Shown here in pieces: positions 55,714 through 64,000 of a stretch of DNA of 64,000 nucleotides (the first letter of the stretch is position 1; each line of letters begins with the position of its first letter). The notes beneath the pieces were generated by a model, which saw only the letters and a program-made list of their open reading frames with translations, did not search any database and was not told the DNA's origin. The stretch covers positions 434,001 to 498,000 of the forward strand of contig NZ_BSTQ01000003.1 of the NCBI RefSeq assembly GCF_030269605.1, in the 5' to 3' direction. The translations under genes were made by a program, and so were the position numbers. This stretch comes from Lentzea sp. NBRC 105346 (GTDB lineage: Bacteria > Actinomycetota > Actinomycetes > Mycobacteriales > Pseudonocardiaceae).

Positions 55714-56262
55714 TCACCGGCTCAGGAGGTTCTCGACCAGCCTCCAGACGCCCGTGGACGGGTTGCCCGGCTCGTCCAGCGCCTTGGCCCGTTCGACCGC
55801 CGCCTCCACGCCTGCTTCGAACACCGCGAAATCGAGCTTCTTGTCGTAGCCAGGCACATGCTTGCCAAGCAGGGCGCAAGCTGCCTTCCCGTCCTTGACG
55901 AAGGCTTTGTGGTCGACGTGGTGCAGCAGAAGCCAGACCTCGAAGCAGGGGTTCGAGACCGCCAGCTCGATGCCGGACTGCGCCGCGAGCCGCGTCGCCG
56001 CGTCGATGTCGAAATGGTCCACGTCCACCACGCACCATGCCGCGTCGTACTCGTCCTTGCTGAACACACTCTTCGCGTACTTGACCAGGTTTTCGGGCGA
56101 GTCCGCCTTCACCCTCACCTTGAGGCGGGCTTGCCGAGATATGCGCAGGCCGGCGAAGTAGTCCGGCTCGGTCCGCTGTCCGCCGCACACCACAAGCACA
56201 TGACCTGGGCGTTGTGGACGCGGTTGCCCTTTGCGGTTCTGCGCGTTCTCACGCCTCGGCAT
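55714..56262 (-). CDS. rloB: RloB family protein (AbiL-like effector)
   Basis: A 182-residue RloB-fold protein, a TOPRIM-like nuclease candidate that pairs with an RloA ATPase in abortive-infection systems. The first motif reads VLVVCGGQRTEPDYFAGL, where many RloB proteins have EG in place of the first GG, so an acidic residue may be missing. The second is CVVDVDHFD, keeping the DxD pair. The third region is AVSNPCFEVWLLLHH. The ATG lies 14 bp inside the end of rloA, so the two are translated together. Confidence 0.85.
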   Translation of the reverse strand: MPRRENAQNRKGQPRPQRPGHVLVVCGGQRTEPDYFAGLRISRQARLKVRVKADSPENLVKYAKSVFSKDEYDAAWCVVDVDHFDIDAATRLAAQSGIELAVSNPCFEVWLLLHHVDHKAFVKDGKAACALLGKHVPGYDKKLDFAVFEAGVEAAVERAKALDEPGNPSTGVWRLVENLLSR

Positions 56263-57595
56263 CAATCCCCCGGACAGCTGCAGCGAACCGGTCCTCGAAC
56301 AAATTGGGGACCGCTCCATAGCGACCGGCGAGATACCGTCGCTGCACGTTGTCCTCGCTGCGAGGTTTGAAGTCGGTCAACGGGTAGAGCGAGCTCGCAC
56401 CCTTTTCATCCTTCTCTACGAACCACACCTCGTCCCTCGCTAGGACTTCCTCTCCGAACGGAGCGTGCAGCAAGGTCGCATCATGCGTCGTGAAGATCAG
56501 CTGACCGCCTGCGGTATTCGTGGCTTCGTCGTTGAAGAGGGCGATCAGACGCAGCGCCAGGAGCGGGTGCAAGCTGGCGTCGATCTCATCGATGACGAGG
56601 ACGCCACCTTCGTGCAGCACCGGCAGCACGGTCGGCAACAAGCCCAACCAAGATCGTGTACCCGCCGATTCCTCATCGAACTCGAACGTTTCGTTCTCGC
56701 CGTGCAAGAGTCGCACACGACGACGCTTCCGCTCGAATTCGAGAATGGCGATCTCCAATTGGAGCGCCGCTTCGCTCAATCGAAGGTCGACATTAAATGG
56801 GCGACGATCGACTACGCCCGTGCCACTGCGCGGAGCCGCCTCCGCAATCAACTCCGAATGAACCCGTTCGGCACGCTTGATTTCTGGAGCTGATTCAACG
56901 CCGCCTACAATAATGCCAGATATCCCGAAGTCCGCCGCGCGGAGTAGCTCAACCAGTTGCTCATGATAGTCAGTACGAGCCGCAATGAAGTGGCCAATTT
57001 GATGTTCGGCCATGTGCAGGTCGCCGTCAACGCGAAAGTGCAGCCCGTTGACAAACCATCGATAGACCGGCATCACCTGTGCGACATTGGATTGCGCCGC
57101 CAAGCTGACCAACAGGGAGTTGGGCCGCAGCAGTCCGGCAAGGACTTCCAGCTTCGCTTTGAGTTCCGAATCGGTGCTGCCGAACTTGATCTCGTCGGCC
57201 GACCGCTCGAACAGGATTCGCTTCCGCTTCTCCGGGTAGCTGTACAGCCACTCCTCACGGACACGCGTGTCGTCGACCTCGAAGCCGTAGGTGTACCGAA
57301 CGCCGGCCTCGATGAACTCCGCCACGAACACGGACGGCTCAGCGAGCGCAGCCGCGTCCAGCTTGAACGGGCGGCGCGGCACCCCACCATCCGGTCGCCA
57401 CGACGCGAACGAGTCACGGACGGCCGACGCCATGAACCGCAGCCCGTCGAGCAGGTTGGACTTGCCCGAGGCGTTGGCGCCGTAGACAGCCGCCACCGGC
57501 AGCGCCAGACGATCCTTCGCGTACGCGGGCATGAGCAACAACTCGTGCTCGTCACGGAACGAGCGGTGGTTGCCGAGCCGGAAGCTCCGCAGCAC
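56249..57595 (-). CDS. rloA: RloA-like AAA15 ATPase (AbiL-like)
   Basis: A 448-residue ABC-type AAA ATPase of the RloA/AbiLi group. The SMC-like N-terminus FRLGNHRSFRDEHELLL leads to Walker A VYGANASGKSNLLDGL. Walker B is GGVLVIDEIDASLHPLLALR and the downstream switch is LIFTTHDATLLH. The GTG start follows GGAGG by nine bases; an upstream ATG gives an unconserved extension. The middle of the gene is visibly more AT-rich than its neighbours, suggesting acquisition by transfer. Confidence 0.88.
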   Translation of the reverse strand: MLRSFRLGNHRSFRDEHELLLMPAYAKDRLALPVAAVYGANASGKSNLLDGLRFMASAVRDSFASWRPDGGVPRRPFKLDAAALAEPSVFVAEFIEAGVRYTYGFEVDDTRVREEWLYSYPEKRKRILFERSADEIKFGSTDSELKAKLEVLAGLLRPNSLLVSLAAQSNVAQVMPVYRWFVNGLHFRVDGDLHMAEHQIGHFIAARTDYHEQLVELLRAADFGISGIIVGGVESAPEIKRAERVHSELIAEAAPRSGTGVVDRRPFNVDLRLSEAALQLEIAILEFERKRRRVRLLHGENETFEFDEESAGTRSWLGLLPTVLPVLHEGGVLVIDEIDASLHPLLALRLIALFNDEATNTAGGQLIFTTHDATLLHAPFGEEVLARDEVWFVEKDEKGASSLYPLTDFKPRSEDNVQRRYLAGRYGAVPNLFEDRFAAAVRGIDAEA

Positions 57596-57740
57596 GTCTA
57601 AACACCTCCAACCGGATACCTTTGCACCGTTCTGTGCAAGTAAACCGCACGGACCGACCCCAAGCTGCCGTTGCGGTTCAGTTTCCACGATCTAGAACAC
57701 CCTGGAATCGTGCCAGTCAGGCGGGAGCTACTTTGATCCG

Positions 57741-59173: not shown

Positions 59174-59273
59174 GCTGTCTGATGTGGTCAGAGATTCACC
59201 CGAAGTTGTCTACCGGAGCTCCGACAGGAGGCGATACAAAGATCGTGACCCTGCACACATGGGAGGTTTTCCT

Positions 59274-59738
59274 GTGTCATCACCCCTGCGCAGCACGATC
59301 GCCGCGAGCGCGGCCTCGGTAGCACTGATCTTCGGAACCGGCACGGCCCAGGCCGTGAACATCCCGGCCGTCACGGACCAGTACCTGTTCTCGACGTCCC
59401 TGTCCGGCTTCGAGACCGCCCGCGCCCAGCAGCCGTACAACGGCCAGCTCGACTGGTCGAGCGACGGCTGCTCGTACTCGCCCGACAGCCCGTTCGGGTT
59501 CAAGTTCTTACCGTCGTGTCACCGGCACGACTTCGGTTACCGCAACTACAAGCGCCAGAGCCGGTTCACCGAGTCGAACCGGCTGCGGATCGACAACAAC
59601 TTCAAGTCCGACATGTACAACGCGTGCGGCGGCAACTGGGCGTGCAAGCGCACCGCGGACGTCTACTACGCCGCGGTCCGCAAGTTCGGCGGCACCAGCA
59701 CGTCCACGGCGGACGCCGTCACCACCTACACCCGCTAG
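59274..59738 (+). CDS. Secreted prokaryotic phospholipase A2
   Basis: A 154-residue exported lipase. A signal peptide (SSPLRSTIAASAASVALIFG ending TAQA) precedes the mature enzyme. The catalytic motif FLPSCHRHDFGYRNYK contains the His-Asp pair of bacterial PLA2s, and DGCSYSPDSPFGFKF supplies the calcium-site region. Four cysteines allow two disulphides (DGCS/SCHR and YNACGG/WACK). The GTG has GGGAGG seven bases upstream, better than an earlier in-frame ATG. It converges on the KAS III-like operon. Confidence 0.9.
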   Translation: MSSPLRSTIAASAASVALIFGTGTAQAVNIPAVTDQYLFSTSLSGFETARAQQPYNGQLDWSSDGCSYSPDSPFGFKFLPSCHRHDFGYRNYKRQSRFTESNRLRIDNNFKSDMYNACGGNWACKRTADVYYAAVRKFGGTSTSTADAVTTYTR

Positions 59739-59742
59739 AAGT

Positions 59743-59795
59743 ACCGTTAAGGCCACCTTCACTGCGTCTGACGCAGTGAAGGTGGCCTTAACGGT
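59743..59795. repeat. Perfect 53-bp palindrome between convergent genes
   Basis: Arms 59743-59768 and 59770-59795 (26 nt each, starting ACCGTTAAGGCCACCTTCAC) are exact reverse complements around one base. It fills the gap between the phospholipase and KAS III-like stop codons and likely terminates both transcripts. The CCGTTA-GGCCACC core is shared with the palindrome at 22379-22429. Confidence 0.85.
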
Positions 59796-59797
59796 GG

Positions 59798-60829
59798 TCA
59801 CACGATTTCGAGGACGGCGCAGGCCAGGGTTACACCTACGCCGTTGCCGAGCATGAGGATGCGGTCACCCGAGCTCAGCTGACGGGTTTCCAGCAGGTGG
59901 TGGAGCGCCGCGAAGTGGTCGCTGGCACCGAGGTGGCCGACGCCCCGGCCGAACTCCAGGACACCGAGCGACGGATCGATGCCCAGCGGGTCGAGGACAC
60001 TGCGAATGTAGGGCTCGCCGCCGCTGAACACGTGCGTGACGCGGGTGACGTCGGCCGCGCTGATGCCGGCCTCCTCCAGCGTCCGCTTGGCCAGCTGCGT
60101 CCGTGCCTCGGTGATCTCGGCCCTGGCCCGCCGGACGACGGCGGGGGCACGCCGGGTGAACTCGGCGATGCGGGCGCCGATGCGGACCGGTTCGCCGATC
60201 GTGCACTGCGGCGGGTACAGCGGCACGTCGCCGCGGTACATCTCCTCGAACTCCGGCAGCGACGCCGAGCCGACGGCCAGCACCCTTGCGAACCCCGTGC
60301 GCCGCGACAGCACGACCGCGGTGCCCGCGTCACCGAAGATCGAGAGCCGGTTGGTGCCCGCGCCCGCCGCGTAGCGCCAGCGGTCCATCTGCGGACCGCT
60401 GAAGTTGTCCGCACAGGAGATCAACGCGGCCGAACGGTCCGAAGTGGACAGATAGCAGTACGCGATCTCCATGGCGCTCAACGCCGCCGTGCACGTTCCC
60501 CGCACCTCGATCGCGGGGGCGGTGCCGCCGATCGTGTGCCGCTGCACGTAGGTCGGGGCGATCCAGCCCTCCAGCCCTTGGTGGTACGTGCACGCGTGCA
60601 CGACGATGGCGAAGTCGTCACCCGACAGCCCCGATCGCTCGACGGCCTGCCGCGCGGCCAGCACCGCCAGGTCCGGCGCGGACAACGAGCCGGCGACCGC
60701 GGCCCCGGTCCACCCGCTGGCCTCGCATTCCTCCGCCGAGTACCAGCCCTCGCGCACCGCTGATGAAACCGGCGTCACCGCGGGCAGGTGCAGCCCCAGT
60801 CCCGCGAGGAAAAGCCCGTCGGTCCTCAT
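59798..60829 (-). CDS. Atypical KAS III-fold acyltransferase/condensing enzyme
   Basis: A 343-residue thiolase-fold protein. The nucleophile is in EVRGTCTAALSAMEIAYCYL. The usual FabH His position (PHQAN) reads FSGGEPYIRS, and the usual Asn position reads GRGVGHLGASDHF, so His/Asn are replaced by a His and nearby Asp. KAS III relatives with altered triads that transfer acyl groups in antibiotic pathways (for example CerJ and DpsC) are known. The ATG overlaps the upstream kinase stop (ATGA). It is the last gene of the five-gene operon. Confidence 0.85.
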   Translation of the reverse strand: MRTDGLFLAGLGLHLPAVTPVSSAVREGWYSAEECEASGWTGAAVAGSLSAPDLAVLAARQAVERSGLSGDDFAIVVHACTYHQGLEGWIAPTYVQRHTIGGTAPAIEVRGTCTAALSAMEIAYCYLSTSDRSAALISCADNFSGPQMDRWRYAAGAGTNRLSIFGDAGTAVVLSRRTGFARVLAVGSASLPEFEEMYRGDVPLYPPQCTIGEPVRIGARIAEFTRRAPAVVRRARAEITEARTQLAKRTLEEAGISAADVTRVTHVFSGGEPYIRSVLDPLGIDPSLGVLEFGRGVGHLGASDHFAALHHLLETRQLSSGDRILMLGNGVGVTLACAVLEIV

Positions 60830-61446
60830 CCGGGCACCACCTCGAAACACGCCGAGACGTCGTCCAGCACGAGATCCAGCGGCCGCCGTGCGTCGATCTC
60901 GACCCAGCCGTGCCGGGCCGACCAGCGGTCGAGTACCCGGTGGATCTCGCGCTGGTGCGCCAGGAAGCTCTCCCGCGACCGGCTCATGTCCATGCCGCAC
61001 TCGTACGGCAGCACGTCACCGCCCTTGCGCAGCCACGCGGTCTCCGGATCGGACCGCAGGTAGATCACCAGGTCCGACGGCGGCAGCCCCGCCGTCACCG
61101 CCTCCACCCACGCGGGGTCCGCCCCGTACGCGATCTCGCTCGCCGCGTGCTTGACCCAGTAACCGTCGAGCAGCAGCACCGAGTCCGGGTCCCAGCCCGA
61201 GGAGTTGTCGGTGATCGCCATGACCGACGCCCACACCAGGAACAACAGCCGGGGCGTACTGGACATCCGCGCCGCGCACGACCGCACGACGCGCGTGTCG
61301 TCCACCAGGCACGAGGCGGTGGGATAGTCCTGGTTTCCTACGATGTCCCAGCGGTCGACCAGCCGCGCGGGCACCCGTTCCCGCAAAGCCGCGGTCACCG
61401 TGGACTTTCCGACGCCATCGGCGCCGACGATGCTCACCATCCTCAC
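60826..61446 (-). CDS. Thymidylate kinase-like P-loop enzyme
   Basis: A 206-residue kinase of the thymidylate kinase superfamily. VSIVGADGVGKSTVTAALRE is the P-loop, LLLDGYWVKHAASE is near the DR(Y/H) position, and LVIYLRSDPETAWLRKGG is typical of the family. Poor conservation of the thymidylate-binding residues and its place in the operon argue for a different nucleotide or small-molecule substrate. The GTG start overlaps the nucleotidyltransferase stop by 4 bp. Confidence 0.82.
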   Translation of the reverse strand: MRMVSIVGADGVGKSTVTAALRERVPARLVDRWDIVGNQDYPTASCLVDDTRVVRSCAARMSSTPRLLFLVWASVMAITDNSSGWDPDSVLLLDGYWVKHAASEIAYGADPAWVEAVTAGLPPSDLVIYLRSDPETAWLRKGGDVLPYECGMDMSRSRESFLAHQREIHRVLDRWSARHGWVEIDARRPLDLVLDDVSACFEVVPG

Positions 61447-62585
61447 GCGGCACCACCGACAGCCGCCTTGGGGTGCACGCTGAACTGCGGGGCCCTGCGG
61501 ATGAACAGCTTGCCCTGCGCGGCGGGCTGGGCGGGGCGGACCGCGCCGAACCGGACGAGCTGCGCGACGGCGTCCGCGGCCTCCTCGAGACCGATGTCCG
61601 GCACGGAGTTCACGACCTCGGCCAGCGGCCTGCCGTCGAGCCCGCCCCACAGCCGGACCACGCACTCCGAGACCTCGAACCCGTCCTCCGGCCCGATCAA
61701 CGCCCAGCCGTCGGCGAAGCGCAACGGCGTGAAGTAGACGTTGCGCAACGGGCCGGGCGCGTACGGCGGCCACTCCCCCGGCGGCGCGGGCAGTGTGCCG
61801 GGCAGCCCCTCCCAGCCGTCGGTCGCGCACCACGCGAGCAGGACCGCGGCCGCGTTGAGGCGTTGCGCGGTGAGCCAGCCCACCTTGTTACGCGGCACGT
61901 TCTGGTTGTTGAGCCAGAACACGAGGTCACACCACGCCCCCAGCTCCCGCGTGCGGGCAAGCCTGCGGAACAGGAACTTCGGCCCGACGTAGAGATCACC
62001 GGACGCGGCCAGCGCGGCCTCGCACGCCGACTCCAGCGCGAGCGCCGACGCGCTGACCGCGGTCAGCAGGTCGCCCGTGGCCAACGCACCGGAGACGTCC
62101 TCGGCGTAGGCCGAGGCGACGTTTCCGTTGCGCACCATGAGAATCTGCCGCACCACGTTCGCGTCGAGGCGAGCGAGCTCCTCGGCCCAGGCGGGCGACA
62201 CGAGCAGCCGCTGCCCACCAGCCAGGCGGACCAGCGAGTTCAGGGTCTTCACGTGGATCGCGGCCTGCGACCGGTCCGCTCCCGTCGTCCGGTACACGTC
62301 CGCGATGGCCACCAGCTCGCGCACCTTGGCCGCGCTCAACGGGTTCACGTGCACCGGAATGCCCCGGTGCTCGTGCACCACCTCCGCGGCCGGCAGGTCG
62401 GGCCCCACTACGTACAGGTCGATGTCGGACGTGCCGTGCCCGAGACCGACCGCGAGACTGCCCGCGAGGAAGGCCAGCTCGACGTCCGCGAGCTGTTCGG
62501 TGACCACGACCCGCGCCGCCTCGATCTGCGCGTCGGTGAACCCGACGTCGTCGGGCGCCCATGAGCGCACGGATTCCGTCAGCAC
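61443..62585 (-). CDS. Nucleotidyltransferase with C-terminal PqqD-like domain
   Basis: A 380-residue protein. The N-terminal Pol-beta-type fold shows AFLAGSLAVGLGHGTSDIDL with the GS and DxD motifs. A helical HI0074-like middle follows (LTAVSASALALESACEAALA). The last 90 residues (FEVSECVVRLWGGLDGRPLA, AADAVAQLVRFGAVRP) resemble a PqqD-type winged domain that often binds a peptide or carrier. The GTG start overlaps the P450 stop by 7 bp. The transferred nucleotide and acceptor are unknown. Confidence 0.78.
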   Translation of the reverse strand: MLTESVRSWAPDDVGFTDAQIEAARVVVTEQLADVELAFLAGSLAVGLGHGTSDIDLYVVGPDLPAAEVVHEHRGIPVHVNPLSAAKVRELVAIADVYRTTGADRSQAAIHVKTLNSLVRLAGGQRLLVSPAWAEELARLDANVVRQILMVRNGNVASAYAEDVSGALATGDLLTAVSASALALESACEAALAASGDLYVGPKFLFRRLARTRELGAWCDLVFWLNNQNVPRNKVGWLTAQRLNAAAVLLAWCATDGWEGLPGTLPAPPGEWPPYAPGPLRNVYFTPLRFADGWALIGPEDGFEVSECVVRLWGGLDGRPLAEVVNSVPDIGLEEAADAVAQLVRFGAVRPAQPAAQGKLFIRRAPQFSVHPKAAVGGAA

Positions 62586-63691
62586 GGCTTACCCCATTCG
62601 ACCGGCAACTCCCACAACCCGCGCACGAACATTCCCCTTCTCCACGTCAACCGATGCTCCGGCACGGCGAAACGCATGTCGCCGAGCACGTCGAGCAGGC
62701 GGCCGATGCCGACCTGCAGTTCCACTCGCGCCAGGTGCGCGCCGAGACAGTGGTGCCGTCCGTGTCCGAACGCGACGTGCGGGTTCGGCGCCCGGTCCGG
62801 CACGATCCGGTCCGGCTCGGGGAACACCGCGCCGTCCCGGTTCGCGGCGTCGATGACCGGCACGACCGCCTGGCCCGCACGCACCACGACGTCGCCCAGC
62901 GGCACGTCCGCCAGCGCCACGTGCGGCGGACCACCGGTGGACATGAACGACGTCCACCGCAGCATCTCCTCGACCAGTGCGGGCAGATCCGCTCGTGCCG
63001 CCGTCATCAGCGACGGATCGCGCAGCAGCAGATACAGGCAGATCGCGAGCTGGTTGCCGGTCGTCTCATAACCGGCGATGAACATGCCCGCCCCGAGCGC
63101 GACGAGCTCCTCGCGGTCCAGATCCGATCCGTCGATCAACAGCTCACCCGCGTCGACCAGCCGCGCGAAGTACTCGTGCATGCGCCGATGTGCGCCGGCG
63201 ACCTGCTCGGCGGGAAACCGCGACGTCGACATCATCGCGTCGCCCCACTCCCGCAAGGCGGCCATGTCCCGCTCGGGCACGCCGAGCATCCGGCACATCA
63301 CGATCATCGGGAACGGCATCGCGAACTCGTTCACCAGATCCGCCGGCGAGCTCAGTTTCGCCAGCAGTTCGTCGGCGATCGCCGTGAGCTCGGGCCGCAT
63401 GCGTTCCGCGTGCCGCGCGGTGAAGGCGGCCGTGACCGCCCGCCTTCTCCGCGTGTGGTCCGGCGGATCACTCGCCACGAGCGCGAGGGACCGGCGTTCA
63501 CGGGCGAACAACGCGGGCCCGGCGAAGGCCTCGCGGCTGAACCTCGGGTCGGCCAGCACGGTGCGCACGTCCTCGTACTTCGTCACGAGCAGCGCCTCCC
63601 GGTCGCCGCGCAAGGTGACCGTCCTGGGTGGACGGTCGTACTCGACGGGCGGTAACAGGCAAGGACGTTCGGGGAACGGGAAGTCAGGCAT
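62579..63691 (-). CDS. Cytochrome P450 in the five-gene operon
   Basis: A 370-residue P450, slightly short. The I-helix motif is MFIAGYETTGNQLAICL, the ExxR region LPALVEEMLRWTS, and the haem loop FGHGRHHCLGAHLARVELQ with axial Cys. The ATG (MPDFPFPERPCLLPPVEYD) lies 8 bp inside the end of the PEP-utilising gene. Dense overlap with its neighbours points to one pathway. The second P450 in the window (45080-46354) is not closely similar by eye. Confidence 0.92.
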   Translation of the reverse strand: MPDFPFPERPCLLPPVEYDRPPRTVTLRGDREALLVTKYEDVRTVLADPRFSREAFAGPALFARERRSLALVASDPPDHTRRRRAVTAAFTARHAERMRPELTAIADELLAKLSSPADLVNEFAMPFPMIVMCRMLGVPERDMAALREWGDAMMSTSRFPAEQVAGAHRRMHEYFARLVDAGELLIDGSDLDREELVALGAGMFIAGYETTGNQLAICLYLLLRDPSLMTAARADLPALVEEMLRWTSFMSTGGPPHVALADVPLGDVVVRAGQAVVPVIDAANRDGAVFPEPDRIVPDRAPNPHVAFGHGRHHCLGAHLARVELQVGIGRLLDVLGDMRFAVPEHRLTWRRGMFVRGLWELPVEWGKPC

Positions 63692-64000
63692 CGAGCCACA
63701 CCGTCCCCGCGCCGCCGTCGACCTCGACCTGATCACCAGTCTTGATCAACCGGGTGGCGCCCTCGACGCCCACGACGGTCGGGATGCCGAGCATCCGCCC
63801 GGTGATCGCCGTGTGCGACACGGGACTGCCGCGCTCCACCACCATCGCGGTCGCCGTCAGCATCAGGAACAGCCACCCCGGATCGGTCTCCCGCGCGACC
63901 AGGACCTTGCCGTCGCACGACACACCGGGCGCGGCCGGGTCGAGCACGACCCGCGCCTCACCGCGCACGCGTCCGCTGCTCGACGCGATGCCCCGCAAGG
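63684..64000 (-). CDS. PEP-utilising enzyme, C-terminal swivelling domain (partial)
   Basis: Only the last 105 codons are in the window; the 5' part lies beyond the right edge. The swivelling phosphohistidine domain is clear: GKVLVARETDPGWLFLMLTA, then GSPVSHTAITGRMLGIPTVV with the phosphorylated His, then DQVEVDGGAGTVWLD. It resembles PEP synthase and rifampicin phosphotransferase C-termini. The full-length partner would normally carry an ATP-grasp domain. It is the most upstream visible gene of the operon. Confidence 0.88.
   Translation of the reverse strand, partial: LRGIASSSGRVRGEARVVLDPAAPGVSCDGKVLVARETDPGWLFLMLTATAMVVERGSPVSHTAITGRMLGIPTVVGVEGATRLIKTGDQVEVDGGAGTVWLDA

Follow-up and report, generated by a model that had tools for sequence, protein, structure and literature searches.

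The window analysed here is a 64,000-nucleotide stretch of Lentzea sp. NBRC 105346 (contig NZ_BSTQ01000003.1, positions 434,001 to 498,000), and its right-hand edge cuts through an operon of eight genes, all on the minus strand. The assembly that holds the window has 9.39 Mb, and the sequence was extended past position 64000 with the numbering continued (the gene starts are our choice). From 5' to 3' the genes encode a nitroreductase-family protein, an AfsA-like protein, an ICMT-like methyltransferase, a dikinase resembling phosphoenolpyruvate (PEP) synthase and rifampin phosphotransferase (PEPS), a cytochrome P450, a small-molecule nucleotidyltransferase (NT), a thymidylate-kinase-like protein (TK) and a KASIII-like acyltransferase (table 1). 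An earlier sequence-only reading had described five minus-strand genes overlapping by 4-8 bp and running past the window edge. This is borne out: the overlaps from PEPS through P450, NT and TK to KASIII are 8, 7, 4 and 4 bp, and the ICMT, AfsA-like and nitroreductase genes lie beyond 64000. The last two are separated by a 144-bp gap, and the nitroreductase gene overlaps ftsK by 11 bp. The eight genes almost certainly form one unit, which very probably belongs with the AfsA-PEPS operons, the kind that includes the salinipostin operon (spt). The inverted repeat that follows the KASIII gene is the probable shared terminator of the operon and of a convergent phospholipase gene.

Table 1. Genes of the operon and neighbouring features; numbering is that of the window, continued past its edge at 64000 (aa, amino acids).
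Feature	Position	Strand	Remarks
Overlapping gene pair, AbiLii and AbiLi matches	55714-57688	-
Prokaryotic phospholipase A2	59184-59738	+	convergent neighbour of the operon
Inverted repeat	59739..59797	.	perfect; ~25-bp arms, 1-nt loop; between KASIII and phospholipase genes; arms read by eye
KASIII-like acyltransferase	59798..60829	-	343 aa; ACP_syn_III; nearest in PDB ChlB3/DpsC/CerJ
Thymidylate-kinase-like P-loop kinase (TK)	60826..61446	-	206 aa; weak Thymidylate_kin
Pol-beta-type small-molecule nucleotidyltransferase (NT)	61443..62585	-	380 aa; GS..DxD kept; weak NTP_transf_2
Cytochrome P450	62579..63691	-	370 aa; P450 family match
PEP-synthase/rifampin-phosphotransferase-like dikinase (PEPS)	63684..66212 (3' end in window, 63684..64000)	-	842 aa; PPDK_N and PEP-utilizers
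ICMT-like methyltransferase	66216-66833	-	wholly past window edge
AfsA-like protein	66830-67672	-	wholly past window edge
Nitroreductase-family protein	67817-68404	-	wholly past window edge

Comparison with the genus bears on how the operon entered the genome. Among 23 other genus members searched, six congeners were fetched, and in all six the phospholipase and ftsK genes adjoin: the interval is 30 to ~650 bp and contains no operon gene at E 1e-10. Because the flanking genes adjoin without the unit in 6/6 congeners, a gain of the whole nitroreductase-to-KASIII unit as a block is the simplest account, and loss in the congeners is the formal alternative. A strong NT match is found in 0/23 of the other genus members (12 carry weak matches at E 1e-5 or worse), as is a PEPS of the window type, five genomes having a PEPS at 33 to 34% identity. 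Elsewhere the set recurs: all eight genes occur together in a member of the Streptosporangiaceae (L055) and in Micromonospora chaiyaphumensis (L056, the same place as L087), and the AfsA, ICMT, PEPS, P450, NT and TK genes are together in L040 and L041. More widespread still is a core of AfsA, ICMT and PEPS. Since the genes recur together in these four other genomes, the operon is not a chance assembly; a chance neighbourhood was rejected on this joint recurrence and on the absence of the block from the congeners. As to the two neighbours, the phospholipase gene is kept in all six congeners fetched; farther into the window, the overlapping genes that match the phage-defence pair AbiLii/AbiLi have same-site relatives in four of the six.

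Two queries, NT and PEPS, were used to survey the operon more widely. The NT search of 390 genomes of the window's family gave 27 with a match at E 0.001; 12 of these places, besides the window's own, were fetched with wide flanks, the weakest being left out, and the operon was present in two (G126 and G132). A named genome collection yielded 10 NT loci, two with the operon, and in 396 genomes of the phylum three weak matches came up in addition to the window's own, of which L052, a short locus, shows NT alone. PEPS was searched in 300 genomes taken as Micromonosporaceae, in 386 of the window's family and in 297 of a third family (that of G412), which we take to be the Streptomycetaceae. Matches at E 1e-60, spt-type ones included, were found in 17/300, 21/386 and 21/297 genomes, one match of the last search (G571) being left out of the loci. 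Altogether, members of the operon family come from four families of actinomycetes, namely Streptosporangiaceae, Micromonosporaceae, Pseudonocardiaceae and, presumably, Streptomycetaceae. Gene profiles were run over 61 loci, 23 of spt type and 38 others, of which 37 are reachable by PEPS. L055 was found through NT only, so its NT is there by selection. NT first led to L040 and L041, which PEPS then found again.

The 38 loci outside spt fall into four types. Counts were taken at E 0.01 over the locus as fetched (11.5 to 21 kb); contig ends truncate L085, L096, L178 and L184, the last of them after 11.5 kb. Type A (n=5: the window, L040, L041, L055 and L087) has AfsA, ICMT, PEPS, P450, NT and TK in 5/5 and KASIII and nitroreductase in 3/5 each, with a luciferase-like gene in L040 and L041. 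Type B (n=19) has ICMT, P450 and UbiA in all 19, a strong AfsA in 18, KASIII in 14 (plus one weak), nitroreductase in 11 and SnoaL in 10. Type C (n=8) is a smaller set with ICMT and UbiA in 8/8 and a strong AfsA in five, and in type D (n=6) both UbiA and an AfsA of the ordinary form are present in 6/6, ICMT in 0/6. UbiA is thus found in 0/5 loci of type A and in 19/19, 8/8 and 6/6 of types B, C and D, or 33/33 non-spt loci outside type A. NT and TK together are in 5/5 of type A and 0/27 of types B and C, and type D has no NT and one weak TK match. NT and TK take the place that a UbiA-like protein has in related operons. In whole-genome searches a UbiA query gave no match in four type A members (the L055 genome not among them) and one match each in 5/5 controls. 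A simple Fisher value for the pattern takes no account of relatedness and was set aside. In a 60-row PEPS tree the distribution of type A takes three changes (gains or losses), at least two of them forced by well-supported branches; the tree was made by a quick method (LG+G4) with support from the Shimodaira-Hasegawa-like approximate likelihood ratio test (SH-aLRT) only, gave long-branch warnings for L184 and against the spt rows, and leaves out L099. That locus, a second copy in G958, is a type B operon with its PEPS in pieces, possibly a pseudogene. Downstream of the type B operon in L083, L084 and L085 a TetR-like regulator gene was noted by eye.

The operon for the salinipostins, antimalarial phosphotriesters, is the closest characterised system. 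At locus L093 of genome G963, nine genes over ~11 kb encode PEPS, an AMP-ligase, NT, a small carrier-like frame (seen by eye), a reductase, an NDK-like kinase and UbiA-like, luciferase-like and AfsA proteins. G963 is presumably Salinispora tropica CNB-440, and we infer that L093 is the spt locus of Salinispora. In PMC7888443 spt is tabulated as RS20900-RS20940, with the entries 11.1, butyrolactone and salinipostin. Both operons have AfsA, a PEPS of the rifampin phosphotransferase (Rph) type, distantly homologous NTs, a nucleotide kinase and a flavin enzyme. The window operon has P450, ICMT, KASIII, TK and nitroreductase, whereas in spt the first four are absent, NT is longer, and the AMP-ligase, carrier-like, reductase, NDK-like, UbiA-like and luciferase-like genes are present. 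The two NTs align over 291 columns at a probability of 85% (BLAST E 1e-6, 27% over 185 columns), and the window NT as query against the whole G963 genome gave no match at E 0.01. The PEPS proteins are 30% identical over their full length and lie in separate clades (SH-aLRT 100, quick tree). These alignments and the tree point to a shared logic of AfsA, PEPS, NT and nucleotide kinase built on another PEPS clade. A spt-like NT lies on the PEPS strand in 20 of the 23 spt-type loci. Membership in spt proper was rejected, as the window AfsA has lost one Glu/Arg pair and its PEPS belongs to another clade. The sequence-only reading knew of no characterised pathway with this exact set of families; the set does differ from spt, but it is not unrelated to known systems, AfsA, PEPS and a distant NT homologue being part of spt as well. 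Salinipostin-like clusters outside Salinispora were reportedly put in print by Creamer in 2021. A literature search found no description of the gene set, of the reversed AfsA described below or of the UbiA or NT and TK pattern; it did not cover the salinipostin-cluster papers, so an earlier description is possible. In six further loci (L155 and L158-L162), five of them from the window's genus, PEPS and NT of the spt-like kind are accompanied by a reductase and a P450, with no AfsA recognised.

The extension past 64000, proposed earlier as a way to find a scaffold enzyme, brought in the AfsA-like double hotdog protein just beyond the edge as the candidate scaffold-former. Its AfsA Pfam domain is clear (E 2.8e-14, 53.7 bits against a gathering score of 24), and a PDB sequence search with it gave no convincing match. 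Above the score limits there were 47 AfsA-type proteins, 28 relatives of the window type and 19 ordinary ones, a split that was drawn after the motifs had been seen and that coincides with operon type (A, B and C versus D and spt-type). The ordinary set consists of the 19 AfsA proteins of spt-type and type D operons, AfsA and ScbA themselves not being in the alignment. In the 28 relatives a half with DHxxDHxPG comes first and one with VHR and E..RQ second, opposite to the 19 ordinary proteins. The ordinary proteins have Glu in both halves in 19/19, and Arg in 19 and 18 of 19. In the relatives, the first-half Glu position holds C in 14, A in eight, D in four, N in one and E in one, and the Arg is lost in 28/28; the second half keeps Glu in 27/28 and Arg in 28/28. 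Scored with half profiles, the first half fits the ordinary C-terminal profile better in 28/28, and the second fits the N-terminal profile in 21/28 (24.9 versus 5.3 bits for the window protein) and the C-terminal one in seven. Because the half profiles agree in 28/28 for one half and in only 21/28 for the other, the sequence comparison makes a reversed order of the halves likely, short of proof. The predicted structure of the L055 relative, with a predicted local distance difference test (pLDDT) value of 55.4, was too weak for a fold search and has a helix followed by four strands, twice. Compared with spt AfsA (Spt9), then, the halves of the window protein appear reversed, and the Glu/Arg of both halves is not found, one pair being lost. 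With the butyrolactone synthases of A-factor and SCB (AfsA, ScbA) the window protein shares the AfsA hotdog domain; judged by the ordinary set, it differs from this kind of enzyme in the lost Glu/Arg pair and, apparently, in the order of the halves. Mutagenesis of ScbA reportedly showed such Glu/Arg residues to be essential, and a catalytic role is attributed to them.

An AfsA domain also raises the prospect of an A-factor-like signalling operon, which would make a plain butyrolactone hormone that the other enzymes only decorate. The nitroreductase or luciferase-like flavoenzyme present in 5/5 type A loci would suit such a role, but the tailoring enzymes are many for a plain hormone, NT and TK or UbiA are present in 38/38 non-spt PEPS loci, and no receptor-type regulator was noticed by eye among the flanking genes (no dedicated search was made). 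We consider this explanation improbable.

PEPS has its ATP-binding domain first and its phospho-His domain last, an order shared with Rph, and its best PDB matches are 5hv and 5fb entries, which we take to be Rph. The ATP-site residues K, R, E, Q and R and the phospho-histidine are kept in 60/60 sequences. Against Rph models it scores low (215 bits against a cut-off of 999), and another substrate is expected. Together with the resemblance of NT to aminoglycoside nucleotidyltransferases and the presence of a P450, the likeness to Rph would fit a drug-inactivation cassette. The same low Rph score speaks against this, as do the AfsA and ICMT genes alongside in 5/5 type A loci and KASIII in three of them, so that such a cassette is very improbable.

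The NT motif GS...DxD is kept in 5/5. The predicted structure (pLDDT 84.5) finds neomycin and kanamycin nucleotidyltransferases as its best PDB matches, with TM-scores of 0.34 to 0.39 by query length. The fold is shared with the kanamycin nucleotidyltransferase ANT(4') (Foldseek, E 2e-5 to 2e-4), although identity is 13-16% and NT has an extra C-terminal domain. The sequence-only reading saw in this tail a PqqD-like holder for a scaffold, which is not upheld: there is no Pfam PqqD match and nothing else for it, precursor genes not having been searched systematically. Two NT relatives away from the operon, L057 and L059, have a degraded DxD motif and so possibly a non-catalytic role, and in a Streptomyces locus (L060, 9995-12314) an NT relative is followed by a gene that looks NDK-like by eye, so that NT is paired with a nucleotide kinase there too. 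TK keeps its P-loop and weakly matches a thymidylate kinase (E 0.011).

The KASIII-like protein matches ChlB3 over its full length (E 2.3e-74), and Cys, His and Asp are each kept in 17/17. Cys-His-Asp is the triad of KASIII-like acyltransferases of the CerJ/ChlB3 type, and ChlB3, DpsC and CerJ work on acyl groups and are not enzymes of fatty-acid synthesis. Sequence and triad are thus shared with these enzymes, and the pathway context differs. This kinship, the loss of Glu/Arg from one AfsA half and the matches of PEPS to the RedH and PigC models (205 and 193 bits) would also suit a polyketide- or fatty-acyl-ester pathway, with the AfsA-like protein as a dehydratase or thioesterase and PEPS joining two halves in an ATP-driven condensation, like the prodigiosin ligases PigC and RedH. 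However, the PEP-synthase subfamily model scores higher (465 bits, no curated cut-off being reached among the models shown), and the co-occurrence with NT and a kinase or with UbiA suggests phosphate handling. We regard a condensation pathway as unlikely.

On balance, we lean towards a biosynthetic operon of the AfsA-PEPS kind, most simply gained as a block of eight genes, for a putative lactone-type molecule that PEPS would phosphorylate and that NT and TK would activate. The earlier suggestion of phosphoryl transfer and nucleotidylation on one scaffold survives in this form: the genes make up a single biosynthetic unit, shared by distant genomes, whose chemistry is phosphoryl and probably also nucleotidyl. 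Whether the product itself carries a phosphate or passes through a nucleotidyl intermediate we judge to be evenly balanced. The steps would follow in this order. The KASIII-like protein would load or transfer an acyl group, which the AfsA-like protein would join to a small oxygenated partner, giving a butenolide or lactone-like core; the ordinary partner of AfsA is a C3 phosphate. The nitroreductase, or the luciferase-like flavoenzyme in two relatives, would reduce this core, and PEPS would phosphorylate a hydroxyl by way of ATP and a phospho-histidine, like rifampin phosphotransferase. NT would then attach a nucleotide to the phosphate made by PEPS, or to a hydroxyl, making it reactive, with TK supplying or recycling the nucleotide or adding a phosphate. 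Oxidation by the P450 and methylation by ICMT would complete the sequence.

Several observations weigh against this pathway. NT homologues occur without the operon in 10/12 fetched family loci and 8/10 named loci (L061 and L062, among the latter, are short or at a contig edge, and L048 has one weak PEPS piece); for this reason NT was rejected as a marker of the operon. A neighbourhood search with NT, which the sequence-only reading had put forward as a check, therefore gives a divided answer: most NT loci are without the other operon genes, yet other genomes keep the whole set together, and the congeners lack it as a block. The Pfam scores of NT and TK lie below the gathering cut-offs, the usual third acidic residue of NT is not acidic at the place looked at (the following strand), and a PDB sequence search with the NT profile gave nothing meaningful. 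The type B UbiA-like protein (L084) scores 13.6 bits against a Pfam cut-off of 34.2, so it is called UbiA-like for its resemblance to the spt protein, which is above the cut-off. NT and a UbiA-like protein occur together in spt; a strict rule that the two never coexist was rejected on this account, and the choice between NT with TK and UbiA is valid only outside spt. The alkyl-chain genes of spt were not recognised in the window locus (the ligase and reductase profiles gave no match; the carrier gene was not searched for). Finally, the DHxxDHxPG half is without the Glu/Arg pair kept in ordinary AfsA, so lactone formation is possibly not the job of the AfsA-like protein.

To our knowledge, how actinomycetes make the rare phosphate esters of salinipostin-type lactones is still an open question. 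It is conceivable, though doubtful, that NT with TK and the UbiA-like protein are non-homologous solutions of one step, the latter (found also in spt) being no prenyltransferase and acting on the phosphate ester made by PEPS; with a reversed AfsA of one active site, the operons would then make an undescribed class of phospho-lactones, in which a phosphate methylated by ICMT perhaps replaces the alkyl tail of salinipostin. The choice between the UbiA-like protein and NT with TK offers a direct genetic handle on the phosphate-ester step, and the altered AfsA, as a naturally occurring variant presumed to have a single active site, lends itself to studies of the AfsA mechanism. The operon family as a whole should encode new metabolites.

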